A stretch of DNA of 64,000 bases from assembly GCF_009792355.1 (NCBI RefSeq), contig NZ_CP047045.1, positions 2,878,501-2,942,500 of the forward strand, given 5' to 3'. This DNA comes from Terricaulis silvestris. GTDB lineage: Bacteria; Pseudomonadota; Alphaproteobacteria; Caulobacterales; Aquidulcibacteraceae. Of this stretch, positions 8,130 through 55,541 are shown piece after piece (the stretch's first letter is position 1; each line of letters opens with the position of its first letter). The position numbers and the translations under genes were made by a program. The notes beneath the pieces are model-generated. The model saw nothing but the letters and a program-made list of their open reading frames with translations. It made no database searches and was not told where the DNA came from.

Positions 8130-8238
8130 AATTCCCCCAAATCGCCCACACGATCAGCGCCGCGAAACACGCCCAGGCAATTGACCTACTAGGCCTCCCG
8201 AGATTTACTTAACTCGGACACTATTTTGCGGTGCTGCG

Positions 8239-9033: not shown

Positions 9034-9050
9034 GGCGCTGGAGGATGAGC

Positions 9051-11893: not shown

Positions 11894-11914
11894 TGCAAAA
11901 TTAGGAGCGGCCCG

Positions 11915-15719: not shown

Positions 15720-16940
15720 TCAGATGCCGAACCGGCGCAGCACAGCCTTCGCTCGCCGATGAATGATCTCACGGCGCTGTGCGGGCGTCACCACGGGTGT
15801 ATCCGCGGGCAAGTGTTCACGTAGTTCCGCGAGCTTGACTTTGCGCGCCGTCGGCATCGGATGACGATCGGCCACGTACCAGCGCCACTGAAACACTCCA
15901 GTGCCATTGTCGACCGTGTCGATCCAATTCGGCACGCCGGGATCTTTCCGCGCGATGACAATGCGGGCCTTGCCGTCCGCATCGAGCTGCGCCTGATGAC
16001 CGTTGAGCGAACTCTGATGGTAGGCGTAATCCACAGTCTGAAAGAACGGATCGGCCACCTGCACGCTCCAGAAGCGAGCGTTTGGAATCTCGCTTTCGCA
16101 GATGATCGCCTCGTCCTCTTCAAGCTCGAACACGATCTTCGGATAAACAGCGCGCGGGTTGCCGCCGACATTCTTTGTCTCAGCCATGTTTTCCGCCCAG
16201 AAAGTGTTCTTGTCGCCACCTTCGGCCAGAATGCGATCCACGAGCTTCAAAAAGAAATCGACGGAGAACTTAGTCAGGAAGCCAATCGCCTTCACGCGCC
16301 GCTCCACTTCGGCCTGGCTGAGCGCTACCGGCTCATTCGCGTCCCGATCGAGGCATTCGATATGAATGTCGATGCCCTTCTCGTTTTCCCAATCGTACCA
16401 AGCCTCGCGCAGCATCACAGTGATGTTCGGCGCGGCGGGATCGAGTTCGATCCAATTGCCATCGTGTCTTTTGGGCGAGGCGATGATCTCGAAGCTGCCG
16501 TCCGCGGCGATGTTGAAATCGTCGAAATCCCAGGTTCCGAGATTGGATTGGTTAGCGTCGCCCCAGAAGCCGCGTTGCGCCTGCAGTTCAAGCCAGCGCG
16601 TGCTGCCCACTTTTCCCTTCAGCCGATAGGTTTTCGAGCCGTCGACAAACGTCCAGCGATAGTGGAAATCGGGGCACGGCGCCCCGAAGCCGGACTCGAA
16701 CGGCAAGAAGATCGTCTGCATGTAGAAATGCGGATAACGCTGCCGCGGCGCCATGTAGACGCTAAACCCGAACGCTTGCAGCATCTGGATTAGGTACTGC
16801 GCCTGCGCGCACCCGACAGGGTCATCGGCCCAACGCGAATTGAGCACCAGCGCGCGCGCTTCGTCGATTGTCGTCAAATAGTCTTCCCACACCCGCTGCG
16901 ATGTGGCGGTCGCGAACTTGGGCGTGGGCGAAAGGTTCAT
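15720..16940 (-). CDS. DUF1214-like protein, copy A
   Basis: A 406-residue protein of a family without known reaction. It aligns by eye with the 39076-40446 product: both have a PRQxYPxFYxxxxF block (near 74), WxxLQAQ/WVNFQAF followed by GNxNxxxLGxWDxDxF (near 130), a Glu-rich ELEEDEAIICE/EIEPEEALIFE segment, WSVQxxD (near 314), and DPGxPNWxD (near 353). These correspond to the DUF1214 region of DUF1254-type proteins. No signal peptide with the ATG at 16940; an ATG at 16973 would add eleven residues. It precedes the epoxide hydrolase and probably shares its transcript. Confidence 0.75.
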   Translation of the reverse strand: MNLSPTPKFATATSQRVWEDYLTTIDEARALVLNSRWADDPVGCAQAQYLIQMLQAFGFSVYMAPRQRYPHFYMQTIFLPFESGFGAPCPDFHYRWTFVDGSKTYRLKGKVGSTRWLELQAQRGFWGDANQSNLGTWDFDDFNIAADGSFEIIASPKRHDGNWIELDPAAPNITVMLREAWYDWENEKGIDIHIECLDRDANEPVALSQAEVERRVKAIGFLTKFSVDFFLKLVDRILAEGGDKNTFWAENMAETKNVGGNPRAVYPKIVFELEEDEAIICESEIPNARFWSVQVADPFFQTVDYAYHQSSLNGHQAQLDADGKARIVIARKDPGVPNWIDTVDNGTGVFQWRWYVADRHPMPTARKVKLAELREHLPADTPVVTPAQRREIIHRRAKAVLRRFGI

Positions 16941-17095
16941 GTCTGGCGCTCGAGTGATTGGCCGGGCAAGCACATTAAGGCACGGCCTCGCAACGCCAAG
17001 CGCCGTCTCAGTTGTTCATCGCGGATACGATGGCTCTGCTCGTCCGCTCTGCTTATGCGTCGTCGCGCCTACACTGTGGCGAGGAGACCTAAAGC

Positions 17096-23956: not shown

Positions 23957-26296
23957 TCAAACTCGACGCGGCGGCCGCAGCGCCGACGCGATCTCCTCCG
24001 GCGTGTAGGGCGAGTTGTCGAGGTCGATGATCACCGAACGAATGGCGCCGCGAAACTCGAATGGTCGCTCATACGCCTTGCTCGTCGGCGTCGAACCATT
24101 GCGGCCGATCTGTAGCCCTTGCATGGCTCGACCGAACAACAAAGGTTCGTGGTGCTGACGGATGAGGCTGCGATCATCTGCGAAGAGTTCGACCAAACCC
24201 TGCCATGGCCGCGATGTCACCTCGTGCCGAAGGACGATCCTGGATGCGCCGACGGGCGCGGGCGCTTCGGTGCGCAGCGAACGCGGCAAGCATGAGAACT
24301 CATGGACGAGCTTGCCGCCTTGCAGATAGAGCACGCAACCGAGAAACACGTTGCCTGACGCGAGAAGCACGCCGTCTTGGCCGGCGCGCAACGGCGCTTG
24401 CAGCACGATCTCGATTGTATGGGAGCGGCCGACGAGAGCGGGCGCTGCTTCTTCCGGGATCAAGTCGATCGGGGGTGTGAGCACCCACCGCGAACGTTCG
24501 CCGCCGCGAAAGAACGGGCCCCACGACTTTTCCTTGATCGTGCGCGTGTCGATCGGAAAGACGTCATAGCGGTGAGCGGCCTGGATCCAGCGCTGCTCTA
24601 GCTCGGCCACCTTTTCCGGGTGCGCGGCGGCCACATCTTCCAGTTCGTTGCAGGCCTCGGCGAGATTGTAGAGCTCCCAGCCATCGCCCTCCTGCCGAAA
24701 CGGCGCTTTCGACACCAGCCGCCACCCTTCTGCGTACATTGCGCGCGTGCCGTTGAGTTCGAAGTGCTGCGCGGTTCTCGTCTCCGGCGCCTCCGCGCGA
24801 GCGAATGTCGGGCTAAAATCGATTCCTTGGATCGACTTGGCGGCACGCCCGTTTCTCGCCTCCAGCGGCCGAACTCCAGAGCAGGCAAGGATGGTCGGAA
24901 GGACATCGCTGACATGCGCGTATTGCGGGCGTACTTCGCCGCGAGCCGCAATTCCGCGTGGCCAATGCACGATCAGCGGATCGGCAACGCCGCCGAGATG
25001 GGTATCATGCTTGTAGGACCGAAACGGCGTGTTCGACGCCATCGCCCATCCCATCGGGTACATGGGATAGGTGCCCGGGCCGCCCAGCTCGTCGATCAGC
25101 GGCAACACTTCGGCGAGAGGCACGCCTCCGACTCCGGACGCCAACAAGTTGGGCGTCCCGGTCAATGCGCCGTCGGGCGAACCACCATTGTCCGAGATCA
25201 GCATGATCATCGTGTTGTCGAGCGCGCCCGTCTCGCTGAGCGCCGCGATCAGCCGGCCGATGTTCGCATCCAAGCGTGCGACGACCGCTGCGTAGAGTTC
25301 CATGTAGCGGCTGTAGAGACGGCGTTGGTCGGGCGACAATTCACTCCACGCCGCGACACCCCGGTTGCGGGGCGGCAAGCGCGTGTTTGGCGGCACGACG
25401 CCCAACTCGATTTGACGCGCGAGGCGCGCCTCTCGCGCATGGTCCCAGCCTAGCTCGTATCTGCCCCGCTGCGCGGCGATATCTTCCGGCGTGGCGTGCA
25501 AGGGCGAGTGCGCGGCGGCGTGAGCCAAAGAGAGGAGGAATGGACGGCCATCGGCCACCGCGGCGTGCTCGCGCAGGTAGCGGATGGCGTTGTCAGTGAA
25601 CGCATCCGTGGCGAAGTACGACTGGTCTGAAATTTCTACGCGCTGATTTCCATCGTAGACGTTGGACGGCTGATAATAGTGAAGCGAGTGACCTTGAAAC
25701 CAATGCGCGCGCTGATAGCCGCGCTGCAACGGCCAGTTCTCAAACGGTCCCACCGCGGTCGCTGACGCCTCGGCGTTCACGTGCCACTTGCCACAATGAT
25801 AGGCCAAATAACCGTGCGCGCTGAGCGTCTCCGCCAACGTGATGGCGTCCGCGGCGAGATCGCCGCGATAGCCGGGATAGCCCTCATCGGCGAATGTCAG
25901 CCAGCCAAGACCGGCGCTGTGCGGATTGAGGCCGGTCAGCAAGCTCGCGCGTGTTGACGAGCACACGCCCGTCGTCCGGAAACTGGTGTAGCGTAGGCCG
26001 CCCGAAGCCAACGCATCCATCGCCGGCGTGGCGATCTCGCCGCCGTAACAACCCAGATCTGAGAAACCCACATCGTCGAGAACAATAACGACCACGTTCG
26101 GTGCGCCCGCAGGCGCGTCGCGCTCACGCGCGAAGTTCGGTGCCGACTCATCGAACGTCGCGCCAATACGGCCCTGAAATGTTTGCTCCTGGGCGACGCC
26201 GGCGGCGCAGGAGGCCGCGCCAGCGCCGCCCAATGTCAGCGCGCCCGTCAACGCTGTCCGCCGCGATATGCCGGAATGCGAACGACGCTTGGGCAT
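23957..26296 (-). CDS. exported arylsulfatase-family sulfatase
   Basis: A 779-residue formylglycine-type sulfatase that would hydrolyse a sulfate ester. The N-terminus has a twin-arginine signal (SRRTALTGALTLGGAGAASC, near 9-28) ending in a possible lipobox cysteine, so it is likely exported folded and perhaps membrane-anchored. Metal ligands VLDDVGFSDLG near 75; the modified cysteine is Cys112 in GVCSSTRASLLTG; HCGKWH near 161; SDNGG near 370. The usual CxPxR reads CSSTR, so Pro/Ala is replaced by Ser. The C-terminal 200 residues form an extra domain common in such arylsulfatases. Start at 26296 has GGAGAG upstream. It follows a TonB receptor gene with a strong terminator between. Confidence 0.92.
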   Translation of the reverse strand: MPKRRSHSGISRRTALTGALTLGGAGAASCAAGVAQEQTFQGRIGATFDESAPNFARERDAPAGAPNVVVIVLDDVGFSDLGCYGGEIATPAMDALASGGLRYTSFRTTGVCSSTRASLLTGLNPHSAGLGWLTFADEGYPGYRGDLAADAITLAETLSAHGYLAYHCGKWHVNAEASATAVGPFENWPLQRGYQRAHWFQGHSLHYYQPSNVYDGNQRVEISDQSYFATDAFTDNAIRYLREHAAVADGRPFLLSLAHAAAHSPLHATPEDIAAQRGRYELGWDHAREARLARQIELGVVPPNTRLPPRNRGVAAWSELSPDQRRLYSRYMELYAAVVARLDANIGRLIAALSETGALDNTMIMLISDNGGSPDGALTGTPNLLASGVGGVPLAEVLPLIDELGGPGTYPMYPMGWAMASNTPFRSYKHDTHLGGVADPLIVHWPRGIAARGEVRPQYAHVSDVLPTILACSGVRPLEARNGRAAKSIQGIDFSPTFARAEAPETRTAQHFELNGTRAMYAEGWRLVSKAPFRQEGDGWELYNLAEACNELEDVAAAHPEKVAELEQRWIQAAHRYDVFPIDTRTIKEKSWGPFFRGGERSRWVLTPPIDLIPEEAAPALVGRSHTIEIVLQAPLRAGQDGVLLASGNVFLGCVLYLQGGKLVHEFSCLPRSLRTEAPAPVGASRIVLRHEVTSRPWQGLVELFADDRSLIRQHHEPLLFGRAMQGLQIGRNGSTPTSKAYERPFEFRGAIRSVIIDLDNSPYTPEEIASALRPPRRV

Positions 26297-26310
26297 GGCG
26301 CGGTCTCTCC

Positions 26311-26350
26311 AAAAAAAAGCCGCCGCGCCCGGGAGGGAGGGCGCGGCGGC
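26311..26350 (-). terminator. rho-independent terminator after TonB receptor
   Basis: On the minus strand a perfect 12-bp GC-only stem (26339-26350 with 26319-26330) with an 8-nt loop is followed by eight T residues (26318-26311). It lies 26 bp after the TonB receptor stop. The sulfatase start codon is only 14 bp beyond the T-tract, so sulfatase expression needs read-through or a promoter inside the hairpin region. Confidence 0.92.
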
Positions 26351-26375
26351 CGATATCGGCGTTTGGCCGAGCGCC

Positions 26376-28637
26376 TTATTCGCCGCCGAAATTGTACCGG
26401 AGCCGAACGCCGTACGTGCGCGGTTCGGCATCGACAACGGCGTTCACAGTCGTCACCGAGTTCTGGAAGTACGGATTCACGTACTCATTGTCGAAGGCGT
26501 TGCGCACCCAGGCCGAAAGATCGACGCTGGAGCCGAAAACCCCGTTCCATTCCGCAGTGAAGTCCACCAAGTCGTGCGCCTCCATCCAGTGAATGGCGGG
26601 ATTGAAGGAGTCGCTTCCGCTATATCGATCTTGGTGGAAGAAGCTCACGCCGACATTCGCCTCCCCGAGTGAAGGATCAATCGGCAAAGTCACGATCGCA
26701 GATGCGCTGGAGATGTTTCGCGGCGCGCGCGAGAACGGGTTTCCGGACAAGTCCACGTTCCCGGGCGGCGGCCCGATGAACTCGAGGAAGTCAGAGTCGG
26801 TGTAGGCGTAGAAGCCGCTGAACTCCAACCAATCCGTTGGCCTCACCAGGAACTCGAGTTCGATACCCTGAATTTCGGCTCGACCCGCATTCCATGTGAC
26901 CGTGGTGGGTGGGACCGTCAACGCCGTCAGCAAGCGCTGAATGTCGGTGTATTCGGCGTGGAAGATCGCGACATTCGTACGCACGAATACACCGCCGATA
27001 TCCCAGTCCGACTTCATCCCGAACTCGTAGTCTGTCACCAATTCCGGCTCAAAAGCGTCCCGCAGCGTGGCCTCCGTGCCGCCGCGCGCACCGAAACCGC
27101 CACTGCGATAGCCGTGGCGCGTCGCCAGGTAGAACATCAAATCGTCGGTCGCCTGATATTGAACCCCCAAATTGTAGGTTGGCTCTTCAAAGCTCGCTTC
27201 GAGGTTCAGCTGGCAGCCGGCGAGGCCTGGGTTGATTTCAGGCGTTGCCGTGTTGTTGTCGTGGTCCACCGTAAAGCGGCACGTCGCGGCGGTGCGATTC
27301 CTGACATAGGCGTCGCGCTCATCATGGTTGAATCGCGCGCCCACTGTCGCCGACAGACCAGCGAGGATGGCATCCAATTCGAAATTGCCCTCCGCGAAGA
27401 TCGCCCAACTGGTGTTGCTCCCGCCAACCCAAGTGTCGCTGAAGGCCGGGAGATCTCGCAGATCCTCGAAGGTTTCCAGGACGCCATCTGCGGCGGGATT
27501 TGCGGCGCCGGCGCCGGAGCCCGCGCTCAACCCTTGATCATCGCCCTTCTCACGGAAATAGAAGCCGCCGAAGATGACATTGCCCCAGTCGTAGTCGAGC
27601 TGAAGCTGGAGTTCGTTCGAGACTTGGTTTTGCTCCGTCACCCGTTGAATCGTCAGATAGAGCACATCGCTGCCGTCGGTGTCCTCCAGCGTGTTATTTT
27701 GCAGCTCCCGATAGCCGGCGATGTTCTTGAACGTCACGTGCTCGTTCAATTCCAGCGTAGAAATATTCTCGAAGCTGAAGACATCGATCTCGCTGCGTGC
27801 GTTGACGAGGCCGCTGCGCGTTTCATGGCGCCCGTGCGCAAATGGCGTGCCGGCGCCCGTGCGATTGTACCCGCCCGTTCCGCCATTGTCGGATGTGGCG
27901 GACATTACCGTGAACAGCGAGTTGAAGCTGTCGGTCGGATGGAAGTCGAAACCGACACGGAAGGCCCGCTCGTCAACGCTATTGATCTCGTTGCCCGTCA
28001 CGAGGTCGGTGATGTAGCCGTCGCTTTGGTTCCACATGCCCGCGACGCGAATGCTTGCGGACCCGTCCAGCGGCACGTTGATGAAGCCTTGCGTTTCGTA
28101 GGTCCCGAAATTGGCGGCGGATTGCGAAATCGCACCTTCGAAGTCGCTGGTGGGCGCCGCAGGCGTCACCAGAATGGCGCCGCCGACAGTGTTGCGGCCG
28201 AACAGCGTGCCCTGAGGCCCGCGTAGCACCTGCACATTCGCCGTATCAAAAAAACCAAGGTTCGCCCCGATGGGGCGTGGCACAGGGACTTCATTCACGT
28301 AGAGCGACACCGACGGATCCGACAGCATTGTCAGATCTTGCTGGCTCAATCCCCGGATCGTGAACACGGGCGTCGAACGACCCGAGCCGAGCCCATTGCT
28401 GACTACGAGGTTCGGCACCGAGCCGTTCAGGTCCATGATGTTGGTAATGCCTTCGCGCTCAATCTGCTCAGCGCCGAGGGCTGACACCGCGAGCGGGACA
28501 TCTTGGATGTTTTCCTCGCGACGCCGGGCTGTAACGACGATTTCGCCTTCTGTTGTTTGGGCTTCGGCGATGGCGGGGGCCGCCAGGCTCAAAACCGTTG
28601 TCGCCCACAAGAGCGCTCGCTTCGCACCAATCTTCAT
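26376..28637 (-). CDS. TonB-dependent outer-membrane receptor
   Basis: A 753-residue outer-membrane receptor. Signal peptide at 1-27 (MKIGAKRALLWATTVLSLAAPAIAEAQ), TonB-box-like EIVVTARRREENIQDVPLAVSAL directly after it, plug domain to about residue 160 (VQVLRGPQGTLFGRNTVGGAI), then a beta-barrel ending YGVRLRYNFGGE. The style (VVTARRREENIQDVPLAV) is that of sphingomonad/caulobacter receptors used for uptake of hydrophobic carbon sources rather than siderophores. GGGAGG lies 11 bp before the ATG. Divergent from the ligase module at 28799, and upstream of the sulfatase, so it may import a sulfated or hydrophobic substrate. Confidence 0.93.
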   Translation of the reverse strand: MKIGAKRALLWATTVLSLAAPAIAEAQTTEGEIVVTARRREENIQDVPLAVSALGAEQIEREGITNIMDLNGSVPNLVVSNGLGSGRSTPVFTIRGLSQQDLTMLSDPSVSLYVNEVPVPRPIGANLGFFDTANVQVLRGPQGTLFGRNTVGGAILVTPAAPTSDFEGAISQSAANFGTYETQGFINVPLDGSASIRVAGMWNQSDGYITDLVTGNEINSVDERAFRVGFDFHPTDSFNSLFTVMSATSDNGGTGGYNRTGAGTPFAHGRHETRSGLVNARSEIDVFSFENISTLELNEHVTFKNIAGYRELQNNTLEDTDGSDVLYLTIQRVTEQNQVSNELQLQLDYDWGNVIFGGFYFREKGDDQGLSAGSGAGAANPAADGVLETFEDLRDLPAFSDTWVGGSNTSWAIFAEGNFELDAILAGLSATVGARFNHDERDAYVRNRTAATCRFTVDHDNNTATPEINPGLAGCQLNLEASFEEPTYNLGVQYQATDDLMFYLATRHGYRSGGFGARGGTEATLRDAFEPELVTDYEFGMKSDWDIGGVFVRTNVAIFHAEYTDIQRLLTALTVPPTTVTWNAGRAEIQGIELEFLVRPTDWLEFSGFYAYTDSDFLEFIGPPPGNVDLSGNPFSRAPRNISSASAIVTLPIDPSLGEANVGVSFFHQDRYSGSDSFNPAIHWMEAHDLVDFTAEWNGVFGSSVDLSAWVRNAFDNEYVNPYFQNSVTTVNAVVDAEPRTYGVRLRYNFGGE

Positions 28638-28667
28638 AACCGTACTACCTCCCCTGAGCCCGGCTAG

Positions 28668-28682
28668 GTCCGTTTTTCGAAC
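28668..28682. promoter_or_regulatory. candidate operator, GTCCG-TTTTT-CGAAC
   Basis: An imperfect 15-bp inverted repeat, 31 bp upstream of the TonB receptor start codon and inside the divergent region with the ligase module. On the receptor strand it reads GTTCGAAAAACGGAC. A near copy with a 6-bp spacer lies upstream of the amidohydrolase at 42872. The layout resembles the GTTCG-N5-CGAAC type of site known for IclR-family PcaR/PcaU regulators; an IclR gene is at 38291. Confidence 0.5.
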
Positions 28683-28798
28683 GCTGTATGTAATTCCGTG
28701 GCGAGTGTGACGCTCTTCTTTGCGGCGGCGGTTTTCAATATGCCCTGCTTCGTTATCGCCGGTGCGATGTATGCCCTGATCGCCCTTGGCCTTTTCTG

Positions 28799-30136
28799 GT
28801 GTCGCTTGGAGAACACAAAAGGCACCCGACTGAAGGACGCAAACCCTTGGACCGCAGATACTTCGATCCAATCGAGACGGCACCAAGATCGGAGATCGAT
28901 CGCGTTCAAGAAGAGCGCCTCATCGAGCAGGTGGGGCATGTATATGAGAGATCACCGCTCATTCGGCGGGAGTGGGACAAGGCCGGCGTTACGCCCAACG
29001 ACATTCGCTCCATAAGCGATTTCAAGCGCCTCGCGCCGTTCATCGAAAAGGCGACGATCCAGAATTTCCGCGCCGAGACCGGCGACCCGATGGGCGGCGT
29101 GCTCGCCGGCCCTCTTTCAGAAGTGGCGCTCTACGGGACCAGTTCGGGCACCACAGGTGATCCCACCTTGTTCGCGGAGAGCTGGACCGCGCGCGGCGAA
29201 ATGATCTTTACAGCGCGAGATATCTGGGAAACCGGTCTGCGTCCTGGCGATCACCTGATCGATGTCCAGATGGTCATCCGCTCGATCGGGCGGCTCTACT
29301 TTCTAGACATGGGCGCCACGCCAATCTTCTTTCATCACGACGCCAGCGATGTGCCGCGCCTGATTCAAGCGTGTCTCAAATACCGCCCGAGCTGGATGTT
29401 TCACATCAGCTCGCCGCTCATCTACGCGCTCGAACGCCTCGAAGCCGAAACGAAAGTGGATCTTCGCGACGTCTTCTCTTCGTTCAAGGGCGTCATCTAT
29501 GGCGGCGAGCCGATGGGCCGGCACAACAAGGAATTGATGAAGCGCTGGGGCGTCCCTGTATTCGAATTCACCAGCCTCGGCGACTGCGGCACCGCATGGG
29601 AATGCCAAGCGCGCGACGGCTTCCACGCATGGGAAGATCTCGTCGTCTTCGAAGTTGTCGATCCCGAAACGGGCGATCCCGTCCCATCTGGCGGGCGCGG
29701 CGAGATGGTATGCACCGCCCTCGTCGACAAGGTCGATCCGCTCATCCGCTTCCGTTCGGGTGATCTCGTGCGCTGGACGAATGAACCGTGCGCGTGCGGC
29801 CGCACGCATGCGCGCTACTGGCCACTCGGACGCGCAGGCGACGAACTGATCGTCGATGGCCGTAGTGTGATGCCGGCGGACGTCTGGAGCGCGGTCGAAA
29901 GCGTGCCCGAAACCGCATCCGGCCTCTTCCAGATCATTCGCCCGCAACGCGAAGTGTCAGAGCTGAAACTGCGCGTTGGCTACGACGGCGCGCCGGACAT
30001 GGCTGATCTCGCGCGCCGCGTCGCGGACGCGGTGGAGAAGAATACCGGACTTCGCCCGAGCGTCGAACTGATGCCCAACACGGAAATCGTGAAGTTCGGG
30101 CCGCCCCATAAGATTCCACGGACGGCGAAGCAATGA
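28799..30136 (+). CDS. PaaK-like adenylate-forming CoA ligase
   Basis: A 445-residue enzyme of the phenylacetate-CoA ligase branch. Motifs: GTSSGTTGDPTLFAES (P-loop) near residue 113, YGGEPMGRHNKEL near 237, FTSLGDCGTAWECQ near 258, RFRSGDLVRW near 318, and CACGRTHARYWPLGRAGDELIVDG near 330. It would activate an organic acid to its CoA ester as entry to the following module: unknown protein (4-bp overlap), kinase, acyl-CoA dehydrogenase, two SDRs. The GTG at 28799 is the best start I can find; other starts downstream are possible. Confidence 0.85.
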   Translation: MSLGEHKRHPTEGRKPLDRRYFDPIETAPRSEIDRVQEERLIEQVGHVYERSPLIRREWDKAGVTPNDIRSISDFKRLAPFIEKATIQNFRAETGDPMGGVLAGPLSEVALYGTSSGTTGDPTLFAESWTARGEMIFTARDIWETGLRPGDHLIDVQMVIRSIGRLYFLDMGATPIFFHHDASDVPRLIQACLKYRPSWMFHISSPLIYALERLEAETKVDLRDVFSSFKGVIYGGEPMGRHNKELMKRWGVPVFEFTSLGDCGTAWECQARDGFHAWEDLVVFEVVDPETGDPVPSGGRGEMVCTALVDKVDPLIRFRSGDLVRWTNEPCACGRTHARYWPLGRAGDELIVDGRSVMPADVWSAVESVPETASGLFQIIRPQREVSELKLRVGYDGAPDMADLARRVADAVEKNTGLRPSVELMPNTEIVKFGPPHKIPRTAKQ

Positions 30137-38290: not shown

Positions 38291-39088
38291 ATGACCACAG
38301 TCGCGCCGCGTCCCGAGAAGGAAGAAGCTGGCGGCCCGCGCGCTATGTCGCGCGTGTTGCGTCTGATGAGCGTGCTAGCGCAGGCGCCAGAAGGCCTTTC
38401 ACTCACCGACCTCGCCGCTGCGCTCCACACAGCCAAGAGTACGCTGCTCGCAAGCCTCAAGCCGCTCGCTGCCGACGACTTCCTGGTTACGGAGGGCAAT
38501 CTCTATCGTCTCGGCCCGCGCGCGTTTCGGCTCGCCGCGGAGATCGGCTCCGCCTGGTCGTTGCCCCGAACCATCCGCGGCTATCTGCGTACGCTCGCCG
38601 ATCGCAGTGGCGAAAGCGCGGGCCTCGCGGTGCTTGACGCCGACATGCGCCGCTCCGTGTACGTCGATGTTATCGAGAGCCAGCGCCCGGTGCGCTATGC
38701 CCTCAAGATCGGGATGAGCGGGCCCCTCCACTCGACAGCCGCAGGCCGCGTGTTGCTGGCCTACCAGTCCGAAGCCTACCAAGCTGGGGCACTAAAGTCG
38801 GGCAAGCTCGCCGCAATCACATCGCGCACCACGACCGATCCCCAGAAACTCGTCCAGCAACTGGAGAAAGTGCGCCGCGACGGCTACTGGGTGAGCATCG
38901 GCGAGTCGATCGAGGACTCCGCGGCGATCGCCGCGCCCGTCTTCGGCCCCAACGGCGACATCCTGGCGGCGCTTTCGATCGGCGCGCCGTCTGATCGCAT
39001 GCAAGCCAATCTCGACATGATGCGCGAGATCATCCTGGAAGTCTCCGCGCACGCATCCGGCCGTGATCCAGAAGGTCAAAAACCGTAG
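38291..39088 (+). CDS. IclR family transcriptional regulator
   Basis: A 265-residue regulator. Winged HTH at about 15-80 (SRVLRLMSVLAQAPEGLSLTDLAAALHTAKSTLLASLKPL then the wing around LYRLGPRAF), followed by the IclR ligand-binding domain (SGLAVLDADMRRSVYVDVIESQ near 115, PLHSTAAGRVLLAYQ near 147, DGYWVSIGESIEDSAAIAAPVF near 197). IclR proteins respond to small aromatic or organic acids. Candidate sites of the GTTCG/CGAAC type lie upstream of the TonB receptor and the amidohydrolase. Its end overlaps the convergent DUF1214 gene by 13 bp. Confidence 0.9.
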   Translation: MTTVAPRPEKEEAGGPRAMSRVLRLMSVLAQAPEGLSLTDLAAALHTAKSTLLASLKPLAADDFLVTEGNLYRLGPRAFRLAAEIGSAWSLPRTIRGYLRTLADRSGESAGLAVLDADMRRSVYVDVIESQRPVRYALKIGMSGPLHSTAAGRVLLAYQSEAYQAGALKSGKLAAITSRTTTDPQKLVQQLEKVRRDGYWVSIGESIEDSAAIAAPVFGPNGDILAALSIGAPSDRMQANLDMMREIILEVSAHASGRDPEGQKP

Positions 39089-40446
39089 AGACCAGCGTGG
39101 AAGTCGCGACGGCGGCGCAGCTGGGCGGCTCGCTCCGCGGCAGTGACGCCACGCGACTCCGTCGGAAGGTACTGGCGTACATCGACGCGCTTCACCCTGC
39201 GGATTGTCGGCGTCTCGACGTGTTCCGCGCCGTACCAGCGCCACACCACACGCCCAAACACCGAGCCCATGGCGTCGAGCCAGTTGGACGTCCCAGGATC
39301 GCCAGAGCACAGCACGATGCGCACGCGCCCGTCTGCATCGGCGACCGCCGTGCGGTCATTCACATGGGTGGCGTGATGCACGAAGTCGCGCGTTTGATTC
39401 AAGATATCGCCGAGTTGGACGCTCCAATAACGCGATGGCGGCGGGGCGACCTCGAAGATGAGCGCCTCTTCCGGCTCGATCTCGTAGACCGCGATCTGGT
39501 AGGCCGCGAGCGGACTGGCGCCGTCCTTGGCATCCTTCTCATCGCGGCCGACGACGGTGTGGAACGCGTTGGTTCCACCCGCCTCCCTGAGCACAACTTC
39601 TTGCACCCGGGCGTAGGTCATGCGCGTGACGATGTATTTGACGATCTCTCCGCCAAGCGCGAGCCGACGCCCGAGTTCGCCCTCGCTTAGGATCATGGTG
39701 TCGGGGCGCAACCCGTCAGCGGCCTCGATGCGCAGCGGGGGTAGCGACTGGCCCTCGTAGACGAGGTGGCGCACTAGCAACCAATTGTTGCGACTCTCCG
39801 GGTCGAGCGGAATCCAGTTGCGCTCGCGTTGTGGCCCACCGACGAAAATCTCCAACTCGCCGTTGGCGTCATCTACGAAGCCGTCAATGTCCCAATTGCC
39901 GAGCGCGCGCGGGTTGGCATTGCCGACTCCGCTGAAGCTGTTGAAGGCTTGGAAATTCACCCAAGCGCAGTCGCCTCGACGGCCCACGATGCGGTAGATG
40001 CGCCGGCCGTCGAGAAACGCGGTGCGATAGACGAAGTCCGGATTGGGCAGGTTGTAGGAAAAGATCGAGGGATCGAAATACTCGTGCAGATAGAAGCGCG
40101 GATAGTCTTGCCGCGGTGCGACCGCGAGCAAGTACGCCTGCGCTTGAATCTGCGGCAGAATCGCCAGCGCCTCGGCGCGCGTCTGCGGATCGTGGTTGGT
40201 GAGCGGCGATGTGAGGATAAGTTCGCGCACCTCCTCGATCGCCGCATTGTAGCGGCGCCAGCCATCCGCTTCGCTGATCTCTCCATGCTCAAGTTCGGGC
40301 GCAGTGGCGCCGCTGCCGGGTGGCGCGTAGCGCCGCCAGGGCGGGAGTTCGTCAGCCATGCCCGCGCCCTCCGTGGCGCACGCAGCCGCAGCGCCGGCGG
40401 CGCCTTGCAGTGCTCCGCGTCTGGTGACGCAGATGGCTTTTGTCAT
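39076..40446 (-). CDS. DUF1214-like protein, copy B, Tat/lipoprotein signal
   Basis: A 456-residue paralogue of the 15720-16940 product, sharing APRQDYPRFYLHEYFDP (near 122), GNANPRALGNWDIDGFVDD (near 187), EIEPEEALIFE (near 338), RYWSVQLGD and GDPGTSNWLDAMG. It differs by an N-terminus with a twin arginine (VTRRGALQGAAGAAAAC, residues 7-23), which looks like a Tat signal ending in a lipobox cysteine, so this copy may be exported while copy A is cytoplasmic. It is the last gene of the operon amidohydrolase-sulfotransferase-DUF1214, 15 bp after the sulfotransferase, the same order as at 11915-14562. Confidence 0.75.
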   Translation of the reverse strand: MTKAICVTRRGALQGAAGAAAACATEGAGMADELPPWRRYAPPGSGATAPELEHGEISEADGWRRYNAAIEEVRELILTSPLTNHDPQTRAEALAILPQIQAQAYLLAVAPRQDYPRFYLHEYFDPSIFSYNLPNPDFVYRTAFLDGRRIYRIVGRRGDCAWVNFQAFNSFSGVGNANPRALGNWDIDGFVDDANGELEIFVGGPQRERNWIPLDPESRNNWLLVRHLVYEGQSLPPLRIEAADGLRPDTMILSEGELGRRLALGGEIVKYIVTRMTYARVQEVVLREAGGTNAFHTVVGRDEKDAKDGASPLAAYQIAVYEIEPEEALIFEVAPPPSRYWSVQLGDILNQTRDFVHHATHVNDRTAVADADGRVRIVLCSGDPGTSNWLDAMGSVFGRVVWRWYGAEHVETPTIRRVKRVDVRQYLPTESRGVTAAERAAQLRRRRDFHAGLYGF

Positions 40447-40461
40447 GCGCCGCTCCGTCTC

Positions 40462-41631
40462 TCATGCGCCGCTTCCCCGCTCGAGCACGACCTGGTTGTC
40501 AGCGATGTAGGGGGCGAAGGCACGGTCGATGTCTTCGAAGCTCAAGCCGAACTCCTCGAGCCCATATTTATGGCGCCCGAATTTGTGCCGCGGGTTATCA
40601 CTCATGTAGGCCAACAGCGGGGCCTCGTGCTCCGCGCCGAACGCTAGGCTCATCTCATCGTAGAGCTTCGCCAGGGTCCCGAGAGGATCGGCGTTGAGAT
40701 CAACGAACTGCACGTCGAAGAAGCGGCCTGGGCGTGCGAGCGCCTCTCTGATCTCGCGAAGGCGATTCATGATTTTGTGATAGCCGAAGCGCGACCTCGT
40801 CACGGCTTCGCGATCGACGTCGTCGCAGAAGAGACCGCGCATCTGGGTGACGATGCTGATGAGCGAGGCGATCGAACGCGCCGGATCGCGGTGCGCGAAG
40901 ACGACGATGGCGTCCGGATAGGCATCGAGCAGCTCGGGCAGATGGAACATGTGCTCCGGCGCTTTCAGCACCAGACGCCCTGGCGGGCCACGCCAGGCCA
41001 AAGTCTGCAACACCATGCGGTGTAAGCGATATGACGCGTGGAAATCCGTCGTCTCACGATAAGCTGTGTAGCGCGGCACGTTCGCTACCGCGCCGAGATA
41101 GCCACCGACGCCGGCGAGTTCGAGGATGGTGCTGCATTCCTCCATGCGCGCCGCGCCGTAGGCATGCTTGGCCATCGCTGACGCCGCCTTGAAGCCCTGG
41201 CGCGCGAGCATCGCCTCGATTTCGCCGATGCGTGGATCGCTTGTGTATGTCGCCGCCTGCGGCGGCGGAGAAGGACGCATCATCTCCCAGTACTGGACGC
41301 CACGATGCCCAGGCGCGGTCGCCAGCAGATTGTGCAGCAGCGTCGTGCCGCTGCGGCCATTCCCGGTCACGATGATCGGCCGTTCGATGCGGACATCGGC
41401 AATTTCAGGGAAACGCTTGTGGTCCTCCAGCAGCAAGAGACGTTGGCGCATCGTCTCGTAGAGACGCAGCGTAAGTTCAGCCCTACCCTTCGTGTTGAGG
41501 TGCGCTTCCTCGTTAAGCGAGCGCGCCAGGATGTCGATCCCGGTGAAAAAGTCCGGATCGCCCCAATCGGAGAGCCCCGTGCTTTCCTCGGCGGCTTGCT
41601 GCAGCGCCGTGCGATCGAGGCTGAGCGCCAT
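40462..41631 (-). CDS. PAPS-dependent sulfotransferase, copy 3
   Basis: A 389-residue paralogue of the other two sulfotransferases: TGLSDWGD at 18-25, PAPS 5' loop TGNGRSGTTLLHNLL at 89-103 (Asn-Gly replacing the usual Leu-Pro), RLVLKAPEHMFHLPEL near 225, and 3'-phosphate motif AHRDPARSIASLISI near 256. The ATG at 41631 gives the shared N-terminus; the frame runs further upstream without conservation. It follows an amidohydrolase by 11 bp and precedes a DUF1214 gene by 15 bp. Confidence 0.88.
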   Translation of the reverse strand: MALSLDRTALQQAAEESTGLSDWGDPDFFTGIDILARSLNEEAHLNTKGRAELTLRLYETMRQRLLLLEDHKRFPEIADVRIERPIIVTGNGRSGTTLLHNLLATAPGHRGVQYWEMMRPSPPPQAATYTSDPRIGEIEAMLARQGFKAASAMAKHAYGAARMEECSTILELAGVGGYLGAVANVPRYTAYRETTDFHASYRLHRMVLQTLAWRGPPGRLVLKAPEHMFHLPELLDAYPDAIVVFAHRDPARSIASLISIVTQMRGLFCDDVDREAVTRSRFGYHKIMNRLREIREALARPGRFFDVQFVDLNADPLGTLAKLYDEMSLAFGAEHEAPLLAYMSDNPRHKFGRHKYGLEEFGLSFEDIDRAFAPYIADNQVVLERGSGA

Positions 41632-41642: not shown

Positions 41643-42872
41643 TTACGGAGTGAGACCCACGAAGCGCATGCCGTTTTCGTACATGATCTTGCGCGTATCC
41701 GACGGCTTCAGCGTCTTGCACGCCTCGTCTGCAAAGAGACGAGGCTCCTCCACGCCTTCAGAGTGCGGATAATCGGACCCCATCATGATCCAATCGGCCG
41801 ACCCGGTTTGGTTCACGAGCTGCTCGAGATTGTCCTCGGGATAGGCGACGACGCCCACGTGGCGCATGAAGATCTTGCTTGGCCGCTCCTTCAGCTGCCC
41901 GCCCGGCCAGAAGCCGTTTTTCGCCATGCCGCGGCTCTTATCCATCTTCACCAAAGTTGACGGCACCCACTCGGCGCCGTTCTCGGCCGAAAGAATCTTG
42001 ATGTTCGGGAAGCGCTCGAAGAAATTCCAGAAGATGAAGCTGGAGATCGTCTCGATCACCGGGCGCTCGCTATAGCCGTGCATCCACACGAACGCGCTCT
42101 GGCGCAGCCGCGATTTCTGCATCGGCTCGCCCCACACCGCCATGTGGTCCTTGAGATAGATCGCCTCGGAGACGTGGAAGACGACGCTGATTTTTGCTTC
42201 GTTGAGGATCGCCCAGTAGGGATCGTGATCGGGATGCGCCGGCGCCTTGCCGTTGAACGGCCCCATCGGCATCAGCACAAGCCGCGCGCCGTTCTCAACC
42301 GCCCATCGCGCCTGCTCACAGGCCTTGTTAACGTCAGCCAGCGTGATGACGGGGCATGAGAAAATCCGATCCGCGTAGTTCAGTCGCCACTGATCGAGCA
42401 TCCACTGATTGTAGGCGTGGAAGGTCGCGTGGGCGGCGGCCGGATCGTCAAAGTAGCTGATCGCGCTGACGAAGTTGCCGCAATAGAGAATGCTCGAGCG
42501 CACGTCCCACTTGTCGAGGTACTTCACGCGCTCTTCGGGGCCGGTCATCTCCGCAGTGATCGGCACGCGCATATCGACTTCGGCCTTGCCCTCCTTTTGT
42601 GCGCGCAACCACTCGTGCAGCTTGCCGGGCGGCGGAATCATGAAGTCTTCGGTCATGTAGTCGGCGCTGATCTCGACCTTGCGCGCGCCGACATAGAGCG
42701 CGAACTGACCGTCATCACCGTGCTTGTAGTGAAGGCCCCATTCCTTCTTGAACTTCTCGGGGAGGTAGCGCGTGAAGGCGTCCGGCGTTTCGTAGAGGTG
42801 AGTGTCGGCGTCGAAGATCGGCCCGTTGTAAAGGTGCTCGGCGTTTTGGGCGGCTTTGGTCGCGACGGCCAT
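41643..42872 (-). CDS. amidohydrolase family 2 (ACMSD-like) metal-dependent hydrolase
   Basis: A 409-residue TIM-barrel protein. The N-terminal metal motif is FDADTHLYETPDAF (D-x-H) near residue 20; further ligands are suggested by VFHVSEAIYL near 231, the WMHGYSERP segment near 263, and the terminal GSDYPHSEGVEEP near 374. Members include decarboxylases and C-C hydrolases acting on cyclic or aromatic acids; the reaction here is unknown. A second family member is at 57883. It is the promoter-proximal gene of an operon with sulfotransferase copy 3 and DUF1214 copy B; GGGAG lies about 6 bp before the ATG. Confidence 0.87.
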   Translation of the reverse strand: MAVATKAAQNAEHLYNGPIFDADTHLYETPDAFTRYLPEKFKKEWGLHYKHGDDGQFALYVGARKVEISADYMTEDFMIPPPGKLHEWLRAQKEGKAEVDMRVPITAEMTGPEERVKYLDKWDVRSSILYCGNFVSAISYFDDPAAAHATFHAYNQWMLDQWRLNYADRIFSCPVITLADVNKACEQARWAVENGARLVLMPMGPFNGKAPAHPDHDPYWAILNEAKISVVFHVSEAIYLKDHMAVWGEPMQKSRLRQSAFVWMHGYSERPVIETISSFIFWNFFERFPNIKILSAENGAEWVPSTLVKMDKSRGMAKNGFWPGGQLKERPSKIFMRHVGVVAYPEDNLEQLVNQTGSADWIMMGSDYPHSEGVEEPRLFADEACKTLKPSDTRKIMYENGMRFVGLTP

Positions 42873-43031: not shown

Positions 43032-43958
43032 TCAGTTGACGATGCCGCTCGCCTTCAGCAAGCGCATCACCTCGGCCTTTTGCTTCAGGTCGCCGGTTTC
43101 TGAGACGTCGCGCGGCACGCGATAGTCCGTTTCGGCGCGGACGGCGTCCCATCGCTGCAGCACCGCTTCGGTGGTGAAGCCATCCGCAGGCAGCGTCAGG
43201 CCTTGAGTTTCGCCGGTGAACGCTCGGCTCACATGCGCGCCGCCGGCAAGATACGTCTCCCCGGTCACCGGACAGGACTCGTGCACCAGGAGCGCTGCAA
43301 CCGGCGCCACCAGATGCGGCGGCTGCATAGCGCGCAGCATGTCTAACGCGGCAGGATCAGTGACCGTCTCTTCGGTCAGGCGCGTCGTCGCCGCCGGCGC
43401 GATCGCATTCACCTTGATGCCGACGGAGGCGCCCTCGTGCGCCAAGGTGCGCATCAACCCGATCAGCGCTGCCTTCGCTGTCGCATATTCCGCCAAGCGG
43501 GGCATGCCATACAATCCGGCTTGCGAGGTCGTGAGCAATATTCGCCCGCGACCTGTCGCCGCCAAATGCGGCCAGGCCGCCTGCAGCAATCGCCAAGCGC
43601 CAAACACGTTGACCGCCAGCATCCGCTCAAGATCATCAACCGACAGCTCCGGAAATGCCTTTCGTTTGCTGTTGATCGAGGCGTTGACGATGACGGCGTC
43701 CAAGGCGCCGAAATGCTCAAGCGATTGGGCGACGATTGCCGCACCGGCGTCTGGGTCGGTCAGGTCCGCGACAATGGCGCGCGCCACGCCGCCAGCCGAG
43801 TTGATCTCCTCCGCGACGGCGTGCGCGGGCTCGGCGCTGATGTCATTGATGACAACGCTCGCACCGCGTCGGCCCAGTTCCATCGCGTAGCCGCGGCCAA
43901 TGCCCCGCCCTGCTCCGGTAATGACGACGCACCGTCCGGTGAAATCAAGCGGGGACAT
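43032..43958 (-). CDS. SDR family, hydroxyacyl-CoA dehydrogenase-like
   Basis: A 308-residue SDR: TGAGRGIGRGYAMELGRRGASVVINDIS at 15-41, NASI in place of NNAG, Ser145, Tyr158/Lys162 (YATAK), and VTGETYLAGGAHVSRAF near 240. The last 60 residues form a C-terminal tail (QRWDAVRAETDYRVPRDVSETGDLKQK) like that in MFE-2-type 3-hydroxyacyl-CoA dehydrogenases. The frame runs on upstream into the thioesterase gene, but the ATG at 43958 gives the conserved start. Last gene of the crotonase-DUF35-thiolase-thioesterase-SDR operon, 5 bp after the thioesterase. Confidence 0.88.
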   Translation of the reverse strand: MSPLDFTGRCVVITGAGRGIGRGYAMELGRRGASVVINDISAEPAHAVAEEINSAGGVARAIVADLTDPDAGAAIVAQSLEHFGALDAVIVNASINSKRKAFPELSVDDLERMLAVNVFGAWRLLQAAWPHLAATGRGRILLTTSQAGLYGMPRLAEYATAKAALIGLMRTLAHEGASVGIKVNAIAPAATTRLTEETVTDPAALDMLRAMQPPHLVAPVAALLVHESCPVTGETYLAGGAHVSRAFTGETQGLTLPADGFTTEAVLQRWDAVRAETDYRVPRDVSETGDLKQKAEVMRLLKASGIVN

Positions 43959-43963
43959 GGGGC

Positions 43964-44395
43964 TCACACCACGAGATCGGTCAACGCCGCGCGCTGCTCC
44001 GGCGTGAGCGCCAACGGTTTGCGCGTGGCGCGATCGACGTAGACGTGGACGAAATAGCCGACCGCAGCCGGCGCCTCGGCGCCCTCGCGAAAGAGTCCAA
44101 CTTCGAAGCGCAAACTCTTGTCGCCCATGCGCCCTATGCGCACGCGCGCATCGATCGTTTCTGGAAATTCCACCGGTTGAAGAAACTCGCACTTGCTTTC
44201 AACGCATAGCCCGATCGACGGCGAGTCCGGCAGCCAAATAATGCGCCGTTCGAATAGCATCTTGGTCACGGCCGTATCGAACCAGCTGTAGTAGATCACG
44301 TTGTTGACGTGTCCGTAGGGATCGCCGTCGGCCCAGCGCGTCGGGATGTCGACCCGCCAGCGATAGTTTTCGCGGCGTTCGTCCTTGCTGGTCAT
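43964..44395 (-). CDS. acyl-CoA thioesterase (4HBT hotdog family)
   Basis: A 143-residue hotdog-fold thioesterase of the 4-hydroxybenzoyl-CoA thioesterase/YbgC type. TRWADGDPYGHVNNVIYYSWFDTAV near residue 19 contains the catalytic Asp and the GHVNN motif; CEFLQPVEFPETI near 68 is the second conserved strand. It would hydrolyse an acyl-CoA, releasing the acid and CoA. It overlaps the thiolase gene by 4 bp (ATGA), indicating coupled expression. Confidence 0.88.
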   Translation of the reverse strand: MTSKDERRENYRWRVDIPTRWADGDPYGHVNNVIYYSWFDTAVTKMLFERRIIWLPDSPSIGLCVESKCEFLQPVEFPETIDARVRIGRMGDKSLRFEVGLFREGAEAPAAVGYFVHVYVDRATRKPLALTPEQRAALTDLVV

Positions 44396-52812: not shown

Positions 52813-54159
52813 GTGTCTGTTCGGCGCGACCTGATCGAGTCCATCCTCGAACCCGGCGTTTTCGACCGCGCCGATCCCGACATCGAGGCCAAGCAGCTCG
52901 AAGCCGCGCGCGAGGTGTTTGCCGAGCGCCGGGGCCAGATCGGCCTGCTCCGCCGGCGTGCCGAGGAAGCGGGCGTCGATGAGATCAAGTCGATGCGCGA
53001 TCTCGTGCCGCTCTTGTTCGCGCACACCGCCTACAAATCCTACCCGCAATCCTTCATCGACCAAGGCCGCTGGGACCGCATGCTGCAATGGATGCAGACG
53101 CTCTCGGTCGACCGCACCGACAACGTCAATGTCGATGGCGTGCGTGGTGTAGACGACTGGATCGATCGTCTCCGCGAGGGCGGCCACATTGTGCTCGCCA
53201 CGTCGGGCTCAAGCGGCAAGTGCTCGTTTCTCAACCACACGCGCGGCGACAGCGCCATGAAGCGACGCCACGCGTCAGTCGCCGTGGGATGGCCGTTCGT
53301 GCGCGGGGCCAAGGATCGCGCTTGCTTCTTTCTTGGCCCCAGCGAGGGCCCCAACAGCGCAATCGAAGCGTCGCAAAACAACGCCGCCAATTTTGGCAGA
53401 CCCGGCGATGTCCATTTCCTCACAGACGAACCGCTGCTGATCAGCGAAGTCAGCCGCGCCGCCGCGCTGCGCACGCGCATGGCCGACGGCACGGCGACCC
53501 CTGGCGAGATCGAAGCGTTCGAGAATGAAGCGCGCGAAAAAGCCGCGCGCATGGATGCGGCGCTTGACGCAATGACGGAAAGCATACTCGCCCGCCGCCA
53601 CGAGCCGATCTACCTCACCGGCATGTGGGCGCAGCACATGATGATCATCAAGCGCGCGCGGAAGTTGGGCATTCCGGATGGCGATTTCAGTCCGAAATGC
53701 GTCGTCAGCGCCGGCGGCGGGGTGAAGGGCGTGTCGCTACCGCCCGACTACAAGGAGCAGGTTGCGAAGTTCTATGGCGACGTGATCCGTCCGACTGCCT
53801 ACGGCATGACGGAAATGGCGCAAATGATGCCGCGCTGCCAGTGCATGCGCTACCACCGCCCGCCCGGCCTGATCTGGCTGCTCCTCGACGCAAGCGGCGA
53901 ACGATTGCTCGGCCCGGAGGATGGGCCGAACGGCGTTGTCGAAGGCCGCTTCGGCTTTCTTGATCTGATCTATGAAGGCCGTTGGGGCGGCTTGATCACC
54001 GGCGACAAAGTCACCATCGATTTCGCCGCAACGTGTCCGTGCGGGCGGCCCGGCCCGACCATTCTCGACAACATCACACGCTTCGCGCAGGCCGGAGACG
54101 ATCACATCGGCTGCGCGGGCACGATCGATTCCTATATCCGGAGTTCGTTGACCGAATGA
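52813..54159 (+). CDS. LuxE-like acyl-protein synthetase / PaaK-fold ligase
   Basis: A 448-residue adenylate-forming protein. The P-loop is VLATSGSSGKCSFLNHTRGD near residue 130, the A5-like motif PTAYGMTEMAQMMPRC near 324, and the C-terminus has GDKVTIDFAATCPCGRPGPTILDNITRFAQAGDDHIGCAGT, with a CPCGR element as in LuxE/PaaK relatives. The next gene encodes a LuxC-type acyl reductase with a 4-bp overlap, so the pair could activate an acid and pass it to the reductase, as LuxE-LuxC do in luminous bacteria. GTG at 52813 has AGGGAGA at 52801-52807; an upstream ATG at 52705 would overlap the regulator's promoter. Confidence 0.82.
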   Translation: MSVRRDLIESILEPGVFDRADPDIEAKQLEAAREVFAERRGQIGLLRRRAEEAGVDEIKSMRDLVPLLFAHTAYKSYPQSFIDQGRWDRMLQWMQTLSVDRTDNVNVDGVRGVDDWIDRLREGGHIVLATSGSSGKCSFLNHTRGDSAMKRRHASVAVGWPFVRGAKDRACFFLGPSEGPNSAIEASQNNAANFGRPGDVHFLTDEPLLISEVSRAAALRTRMADGTATPGEIEAFENEAREKAARMDAALDAMTESILARRHEPIYLTGMWAQHMMIIKRARKLGIPDGDFSPKCVVSAGGGVKGVSLPPDYKEQVAKFYGDVIRPTAYGMTEMAQMMPRCQCMRYHRPPGLIWLLLDASGERLLGPEDGPNGVVEGRFGFLDLIYEGRWGGLITGDKVTIDFAATCPCGRPGPTILDNITRFAQAGDDHIGCAGTIDSYIRSSLTE

Positions 54160-55541
54160 ACGCGCCCGCACCTGTGCCGCCGCTCCCGGTTCCTCATGTC
54201 GTCAAGGGCACGACGATCTTTGGCAATGAGCAAGATTACGGCCGCTTCGCCACGCCGAAACTCAACCTCGATTCAATGGTGTGGCCCCGGAGTGAACCGG
54301 CGCCCGCCGCGGATGTGCCTGTCGCCGAAATCATCGACGTGCTCGTTCAAACCGGCGAGCGCCTCACGCGCGACCCTGACGGCGCGTTGGCCGAAGCACT
54401 CGAACGCAGCGTGAAATCCAACCCGCTGCCGCGCGATGTGCTCGAACGCTCCTACGCGAGCCTTGGCCGCATTTTCAATCGCGCGATGATGGAATTCCAA
54501 ATCGAGCAGGAACTCGGCGGTGCCGATTTGATCGACGGCTGGCGCGAGGTGGCGACCACATCCGGGCGACCAGCGCGCATCCGCGCGTTCCCGACGCGCC
54601 TGGTCCATATCATCGCCGGCAACGCGCCCGGCGTCGCGGCTCAATCCGTGATCCGCGGCGCGCTGACCAAATGCGTGAACCTGTTCAAGCTGCCGTCGAA
54701 TGATCTCTATAGCGCAACGGCCATCCTGCGCGCGCTTTCGGCCGTGGCGCCGGGCCACCCCATCGCGCGCTCGTTCTCGGCCGCCTATTGGCGCGGCGGC
54801 GACGCCGCCATCGAAGGCATGCTGTTTCGCCCGCAATTCTTCGACAAGATCGTTGCTTGGGGCGGCGAAAGCACCATTCGTGGCGCGCTCAAATATGTTG
54901 GCCCCGGTTTCGAACTCGTCGCGTTCGATCCGAAGACCTCGATCTCTATGATCGGGCGCGAAGCGTTCGCATCGGAGGAAACGCTAGATGAAGTTGCCAC
55001 GCGCGGCGCCTTCGACGCCACAGTCATGAACCAGCAAGCCTGCACCTCCAGCCGATTCCAGTTTATCGAAGGCACGGTCGAACAGGTCGATCGCTATTGC
55101 GCGAAGCTGCAGGCGAAGCTTGGCGAGGAACGGCCTACTTCCTCCTCAACCCCCATCCCGTTGCCGAGCAATATCCGCGACGAACTCGATGGCCTGCGCG
55201 CATTTGAGGACGATTACCGCGTCTTCGGCGGCTATGAAGGCCGCGGTCTCGTCGTGCGCTCCGATGCGCCGGTCGATTTCTATCCTGACAACAAGATCGT
55301 CAATGTCGTGCGGGTCGCCGACCTTCGCGACGCCGTTCGCCACGTCAGTGTCGCGACTCAAACTGTCGGCGTCTATCCCGCCGCGCGCCGCACGGAACTG
55401 CGCGACGCACTGTGCTCAGCCGGAACGCAGCGCGTCGTCGCCCTAGGTCTCGCCCAGCCGGAATCCGGATTGCCGCACGACGGCTTCTATCCGCTGCACC
55501 GTTTCGTGCGCTGGGTCACCGACGAAGGCGGGAACAACTAA
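54156..55541 (+). CDS. LuxC family acyl-CoA/acyl-protein reductase
   Basis: A 461-residue NADPH-dependent acyl reductase of the LuxC family, which makes aldehydes from acyl groups. Recognisable blocks: HIIAGNAPGVAAQSVIRGALTKCVNLFKLPSNDLYSA near 150, WGGESTIRGALKYVGPGFELVAFDPKTSISMIG near 234, and the acyl-accepting Cys296 in MNQQACTSSRFQFIEG. The start at 54156 lies in the stop codon of the LuxE-like gene. No luciferase genes are nearby, so the aldehyde must serve something else. TauD-type dioxygenase gene follows after 13 bp. Confidence 0.87.
   Translation: MNAPAPVPPLPVPHVVKGTTIFGNEQDYGRFATPKLNLDSMVWPRSEPAPAADVPVAEIIDVLVQTGERLTRDPDGALAEALERSVKSNPLPRDVLERSYASLGRIFNRAMMEFQIEQELGGADLIDGWREVATTSGRPARIRAFPTRLVHIIAGNAPGVAAQSVIRGALTKCVNLFKLPSNDLYSATAILRALSAVAPGHPIARSFSAAYWRGGDAAIEGMLFRPQFFDKIVAWGGESTIRGALKYVGPGFELVAFDPKTSISMIGREAFASEETLDEVATRGAFDATVMNQQACTSSRFQFIEGTVEQVDRYCAKLQAKLGEERPTSSSTPIPLPSNIRDELDGLRAFEDDYRVFGGYEGRGLVVRSDAPVDFYPDNKIVNVVRVADLRDAVRHVSVATQTVGVYPAARRTELRDALCSAGTQRVVALGLAQPESGLPHDGFYPLHRFVRWVTDEGGNN

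Follow-up and report, generated by a model that had tools for sequence, protein, structure and literature searches.

Sulfotransferase and DUF1214-only genes as a recurrent bacterial pair, examined from a Terricaulis silvestris locus

A 64-kb stretch of the Terricaulis silvestris genome (positions 2878501-2942500 of a 3.86-Mb single contig; hereafter the window) carries two sulfotransferase (ST) genes that are each directly followed, on the same strand, by a gene with a DUF1214 domain. In the first pair, on the plus strand, an ST gene at 11915-13174 and a DUF1254/DUF1214 gene at 13171-14562 overlap by 4 bp; in the second, on the minus strand, an ST gene at 41631-40462 is followed after a 15-bp gap by a DUF1214 gene at 40446-39076. 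Does this arrangement reflect a functional partnership? The original prediction held that it does, since such a pair occurs twice, in different operons. Both pairs are present with the overlap and the gap that it described, and a third DUF1214 gene, likewise predicted nearby, was found at 16973-15720 on the minus strand. The claim of partnership held for the second pair and failed for the first, whose DUF1254/DUF1214 type is not linked to STs. The ST and the DUF1214-only protein of the second pair are very probably functional partners working on the same steroid-like compounds, because their genes are adjacent far above chance, including among mycobacterial cholesterol genes. A domain family of unknown function is thereby placed in a definite biochemical setting, with a class of candidate substrates that can be tested.

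Recurrence of the sulfotransferase/DUF1214-only pair

The 39076 gene encodes a protein of 456 amino acids (PF06742, E 3.5e-9) with the sequence DPGTSNWLD, which fits the subfamily motif DPGxxNW(L/I)D, and has its ST 15 bp upstream on the same strand. Genome contigs were scanned with an alignment of DUF1214-only proteins, STs playing no part in the selection. A total of 585 stretches fitted the pattern and 574 were confirmed; the best 80 of these 574 loci constitute the survey, and STs in their flanks were detected with a profile built from seven STs. In 43 of the 80 loci the immediate neighbour of the DUF1214 gene is a same-strand ST, and in 7 more a single gene separates it from an ST on that strand. 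The other loci had an ST less than 1.5 kb away on the opposite strand (5), an ST farther off (7) or none in the examined flank (18). Clustering of the DUF1214 proteins left the result in place, with an adjacent ST in 21 of 43 clusters at 70% identity, 13 of 23 at 50% and 6 of 10 at 40%. The original prediction's proposal that DUF1214 genes are enriched next to STs is therefore borne out for the subfamily of the 39076 and 15720 proteins.

A whole-genome scan of 26 survey genomes found that at least 36 of the 83 listed DUF1214-only genes have an ST domain no more than 1.6 kb away on their own strand, against 0.40 expected for these 83 copies under random placement, an enrichment of about 90-fold. 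In two mycobacterial genomes with just 5-6 STs, all four listed DUF1214 copies were paired in each. Several mycobacterial genomes have four separate DUF1214-ST pairs apiece (G748, which is M. asiaticum, G750, G751 and G765). Among 397 genomes drawn from the phylum without bias, only six others carried a DUF1214-only protein; the ST was adjacent in four of these six and within about 1 kb in five. The pairing was seen in Alpha-, Beta-, Gamma- and Deltaproteobacteria and in Actinomycetota, often with a short-chain dehydrogenase (SDR) gene between ST and DUF1214. Survey taxa included sphingomonads, Acidocella, Ramlibacter, Halieaceae, Hydrocarboniphaga and Deltaproteobacteria, together with Mycobacterium, Rhodococcus, Nocardia, Blastococcus and Acidimicrobiia.

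The pairing is common, yet not obligate, as 18 loci lack an ST and gene order varies among the adjacent pairs (31 down versus 12 up). Orphan DUF1214-only copies lie amid cytochrome P450, SDR, acyl-CoA dehydrogenase and CoA-transferase genes. The loci without a local ST and the company of the orphan copies both fit an alternative to which we give a minor but appreciable probability, namely that the two proteins share only a pathway, being members of the same regulated steroid or terpenoid clusters that act on different intermediates, with DUF1214 performing an unrelated step. Membership of a cluster alone would not yield the distribution observed in the ±10 kb flanks, where STs occupy the slots touching DUF1214 and almost none lie elsewhere, with nearly none 3-10 kb off. 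A fusion of ST and DUF1214 was also sought; no open reading frame matched both profiles, the apparent case in L102 being an open contig edge.

Distances among DUF1214 proteins correlate with those among their STs (r 0.93 for 47 pairs and 0.81 for 22 dereplicated pairs), and no permutation reached values as high. The correlation after dereplication also speaks against a merely shared pathway. Co-divergence is supporting rather than decisive, because the permutation keeps shared species history. Genes for the synthesis of 3'-phosphoadenosine 5'-phosphosulfate (PAPS) are part of several cassettes. The annotated order in Paraburkholderia is DUF1214-ST-VOC-CysQ-CysD-CysN; Nocardia has CysD-CysNC-DUF1214-SDR-ST and Rhodococcus has CysD-CysNC-NTF2-SDR-ST-DUF1214, PAPS genes being present at two Rhodococcus loci. 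PAPS-synthesis genes also accompany the cassette in loci L065 and L083. The cassette thus often includes an SDR, and in some cases it brings genes for a PAPS supply of its own (CysD, CysNC, CysQ).

The 40462 ST matches PF13469 (Sulfotransfer_3) over positions 1-213 of 216 (E 1.4e-33). Its PAPS loop GNGRSGTT (G90, R93, G95, T96) and its HRDP...S motif (H247-P250, S256) are intact. Across 53 STs, most of them linked to DUF1214, both the 5'-phosphosulfate loop GxxRxGT and the 3'-phosphate motif HRDP...S are kept. Sulfation by the DUF1214-linked STs is credible, because the PAPS-binding motif is intact and some cassettes include PAPS-synthesis genes.

The mycobacterial cholesterol operon and the possible reaction

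The DUF1214 domain lies about 1,060 bp ahead of the ST domain on the same strand in eight genomes, five of them from mycobacteria, two from rhodococci and one from Nocardia. The genes of M. alsense (L128) run in the order acetaldehyde dehydrogenase, PPE, DUF1214-like (7357-8496), SDR (8439-9281), ST (9282-10436) and KshA (10925-12067), so that the DUF1214-SDR-ST order stands near hsaG and near kshA (Rv3526 in M. tuberculosis). The M. alsense ST matches PDB entry 2ZQ5, presumably an M. tuberculosis protein, from end to end (772 bits). Both 2ZQ5 and a second mycobacterial ST, 2Z6V, belong to the same ST family as the 40462 ST (E 3e-45 and 4e-35) and are named in the PDB just as putative uncharacterized proteins.

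The order Rv3535c, PPE61/62, Rv3531c, Rv3530c, Rv3529c, kshA has been described in the KstR cholesterol regulon (PMC6429209). Since the gene order matches, the M. alsense operon corresponds to Rv3531c-Rv3530c-Rv3529c, with the same DUF1214-SDR-ST order beside kshA. A KstR motif upstream of Rv3531c is bound by the regulator (PMC1995591), and a published table gives Rv3531c as required for growth on cholesterol and Rv3529c as non-required. The mycobacterial cassette differs from the pair in the window in having an SDR between the two genes, and the window has no kshA context.

Four Rv3531c orthologues were identified by synteny, namely the M. alsense copy and those at L127:7149-8288, L129:9757-10923 and L130:5463-6683. 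All four match the DUF1214-only profile at E of about 1e-72 to 1e-90 (6e-73 for M. alsense), and the DUF1214-like proteins of L128 and L130 have no Pfam match at E 1e-3. On the strength of synteny rather than of its own sequence, Rv3531c is a previously unrecognised member of the DUF1214-only family. A hypothetical mycobacterial gene that is reported as needed on cholesterol and has no Pfam match is in this way placed in an ST cassette common to tractable environmental bacteria. The finding is stronger than the original prediction had it, because it reaches this gene. In the library searched, the literature on DUF1214/DUF1254, Rv3529c, Rv3530c, Rv3531c and bacterial steroid sulfation yielded no paper naming the ST-DUF1214 pairing.

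Our tentative reading, to which we give nearly an even chance as a whole, is that the 41631-39076 pair belongs to a widespread type of cassette, embedded in clusters for the degradation of steroid- or terpenoid-like compounds, in which a PAPS-dependent ST is joined by a DUF1214-only protein that acts on the metabolite of the ST. The most economical reading of the cassettes with an SDR is that all three proteins handle one metabolite. The SDR would supply an alcohol, the ST would make a sulfate ester from it, and the DUF1214 protein would act on the same metabolite, most likely in its sulfated form, converting or clearing it. That DUF1214 acts directly on the sulfated compound is possible, if somewhat short of probable. 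If the ST makes such an ester, its accumulation could be harmful and its clearance by DUF1214 could explain why Rv3531c is required though Rv3529c is not. The same pair of phenotypes also fits a role of DUF1214 that is independent of the ST, and it is a further point for the explanation in which the two proteins share only a pathway.

One form that the conversion might take, which the original prediction had put forward next to rearrangement and binding of the sulfated compound, is a lyase reaction, in which DUF1214 would eliminate sulfate from the ester to leave an alkene and, with the SDR and the ST, achieve net deoxygenation. The DUF1214-SDR-ST gene order agrees with it, and the sequence ketone, alcohol, sulfate, alkene is chemically coherent. 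Sulfation before elimination has a precedent in curacin A biosynthesis, where an ST-thioesterase pair uses sulfation as activation for decarboxylative elimination; DUF1214 is unrelated to that thioesterase and the cassette contains none. We nevertheless regard sulfate elimination as unlikely, as neither a set of catalytic residues nor a ligand or a lyase fold was identified, and an ST product in the cytosol would be out of direct reach of copies that are possibly exported. Less likely still is the full proposal of an undescribed module of three steps, in which SDR, ST and DUF1214 together strip steroid-like molecules of an oxygen function: the molecule would be sulfated transiently and DUF1214 would then catalyse the loss of the sulfate, with Rv3531c as one such enzyme in cholesterol catabolism.

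Several findings weigh against the reading of a cassette acting on one metabolite. To the loci without an ST, the variable gene order and the ambiguity of the Rv3531c and Rv3529c phenotypes are added the species relatedness that accounts for part of the co-divergence and the fact that none of the relatives with a solved structure has a known function. The mycobacterial copies have NPG..NW.E where others have DPG..NW.D, so that N and E replace two otherwise invariant aspartates. About 13 family members look exported by a crude signal rule, and these are linked to an ST less often than the rest (4 of 13 versus 46 of 67). The 39076 protein may itself be exported, whereas PAPS is cytosolic: its N-terminus is like that of twin-arginine translocation (Tat) substrates, TRRGALQGAAGAAAACA, if the start is the ATG at 40446. 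A second plausible start, the ATG at residue 30, likewise has a good Shine-Dalgarno sequence. Among the surveyed DUF1214-only proteins, apparent signals were Tat-like in L081, L121, L077, L063 and L120 and Sec-like in L049, L050, L051, L052 and L110.

Fold and subfamilies of the DUF1214 proteins

Structural modelling, which the original prediction had proposed for the DUF1214 proteins, was run with AlphaFold2 for the 39076 protein and gave a model with a predicted local distance difference test score (pLDDT) of 85 and a predicted template modelling score (pTM) of 0.83. Fold comparison of the model found 6ANS (Z 39.1), 3U07 (Z 14.9) and 2P3Y/3VB9 (Z 13.7), with all others at about 5. The first, an uncharacterised Burkholderia cenocepacia protein, resembles the 39076 model over the whole protein (358 residues, 26% identity; sequence E 5e-29). 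The others are Vibrio VPA0106 (3U07) and VPA0735 (2P3Y, 3VB9), which have the same tandem beta-sandwich, with a profile match between single domains only; they represent the distinct DUF1254+DUF1214 subfamily, which is not generally found beside STs, unlike the 39076 type. As modelled, the 39076 type and the two-domain DUF1254+DUF1214 proteins thus share a tandem beta-sandwich fold. When profiles were compared, 39076-type proteins aligned weakly, through their N-terminal domain, with the DUF1214 domain at the C-terminus of the two-domain subfamily, which suggests that a 39076-type protein consists of two copies of one domain that arose by duplication. Assignment of a function from the fold was rejected, since the sole matches that stand out are to uncharacterised relatives and the other beta-sandwich matches reach Z of about 5.

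Several of these weak matches outside the family are to carbohydrate-binding or lectin domains. They would suit a carrier role, in which the DUF1214 tandem beta-sandwich would bind the hydrophobic compound, either already sulfated or about to be, and would hand it over to the ST, a transporter or the next enzyme, or receive it from them, with no catalysis of its own. Genes of the major facilitator superfamily recur near DUF1214-only copies and exported members exist, both of which agree with such a role. The weak matches say little on function, however, and the strictly invariant polar residues D137, R226, N293, R376, D383, N388 and D391 have a more catalytic appearance than mere binding would call for. 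We hold a carrier role to be a live though unlikely alternative.

The original prediction had treated the two window pairs as being of the same ST-DUF1254/DUF1214 kind. Both pairs exist, but their DUF proteins belong to separate subfamilies. The 13171 protein matches PF06863 (DUF1254; E 1e-33) and PF06742 (DUF1214; E 1e-29) over its full length, whereas the 39076 and 15720 proteins match only the end of PF06742, at 37.6 and 47.0 bits, respectively, both above the 25-bit Pfam cut-off; PF06863 gave no match to either at E 0.01. The 13171 protein is VPA0106-like (3U07, E 1e-43), and its PDB relatives are VPA0106 and VPA0735, while that of the 39076 protein is 6ANS. BLASTP found no real similarity between the 39076 and 13171 proteins (E 0.15), whereas the 39076 and 15720 proteins are 36% identical, and duplication of a single pair is therefore ruled out.

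The two-domain subfamily shows no linkage to STs. In a survey of the class, no ST occurred within 20 kb of about 26 two-domain copies among the matches listed; within that distance of DUF1214-only copies, the survey did list STs (G277:C24, G277:C224, G208:C189, G034:C10). Relatives of the 13171 gene are present in 24 of 80 genomes of the order, its own genome counted, and none of the other 23 carries a relative of the 11915 ST. Three plasmid relatives of the 13171 gene have no ST nearby, and no surveyed ST-DUF1214 locus contains a match to the 13171 gene. Linkage of DUF1254+DUF1214 proteins to STs was accordingly rejected after the tests in class, order and plasmids, and for this subfamily the enrichment expected by the original prediction is refuted. 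Since no ST stands beside its relatives in class, order or plasmids, the ST next to the 13171 gene is probably a local adjacency. That the first pair is as meaningful as the second, which its 4-bp overlap inside a PAPS-synthesis operon might suggest, is very unlikely in view of these surveys.

The genomic island in the window

All three PF13469 genes of the genome and three of its four PF06742 genes lie in the window. The 11915 ST and the 13171 gene end a complete PAPS operon (8239-14562, plus strand). It begins with a CysQ-like 3'(2'),5'-bisphosphate nucleotidase for the removal of 3'-phosphoadenosine 5'-phosphate (8239-9033; PF00459, with family and operon context as the basis). CysD, the small subunit of sulfate adenylyltransferase, follows (9045-9998, with the start at 9045 or 9051; phmmer match to the annotated Paraburkholderia CysD, E 3e-166). 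CysNC (9998-11893; PF00009, PF01583) is the large subunit fused to adenosine 5'-phosphosulfate kinase, for PAPS synthesis. The 11915 ST (PF13469, E 3.6e-31) is 33% identical to the 40462 ST.

The 15720 gene (15720-16973, minus strand; subfamily profile E 1.3e-149) encodes the second DUF1214-only protein, which has no signal sequence, and is directly followed not by an ST but by an epoxide-hydrolase-like alpha/beta hydrolase gene (14559-15710, minus strand; PF06441, E 6e-35). A third ST, absent from the original prediction, lies at 20551-19391 on the minus strand (PF13469, E 1e-35; 39% identity to the 40462 ST). Directly upstream of the 40462 ST, after an 11-bp gap, is a gene for an Amidohydro_2 metal-dependent hydrolase or decarboxylase (41643-42872, minus strand; PF04909), and farther upstream in the same direction is an SDR gene (43032-44192, minus strand; PF00106).

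The surrounding catabolic island contains a sulfatase (23957-26437, minus strand; PF00884, E 1e-48) and an adjoining TonB-dependent receptor (26376-28886, minus strand; PF07715), beside SDRs, acyl-CoA dehydrogenases, enoyl-CoA hydratases, thiolases and CoA transferases, a set typical of catabolic clusters for hydrophobic compounds. Among the 79 other genomes of the order a single one has a relative of the 11915 ST, and four congeners have none; the island therefore appears to be accessory or to have been gained by horizontal transfer. A LuxC-type acyl-CoA reductase is common to the island (53982-55541) and the Paraburkholderia DUF1214-ST locus (L037:1242-2702).

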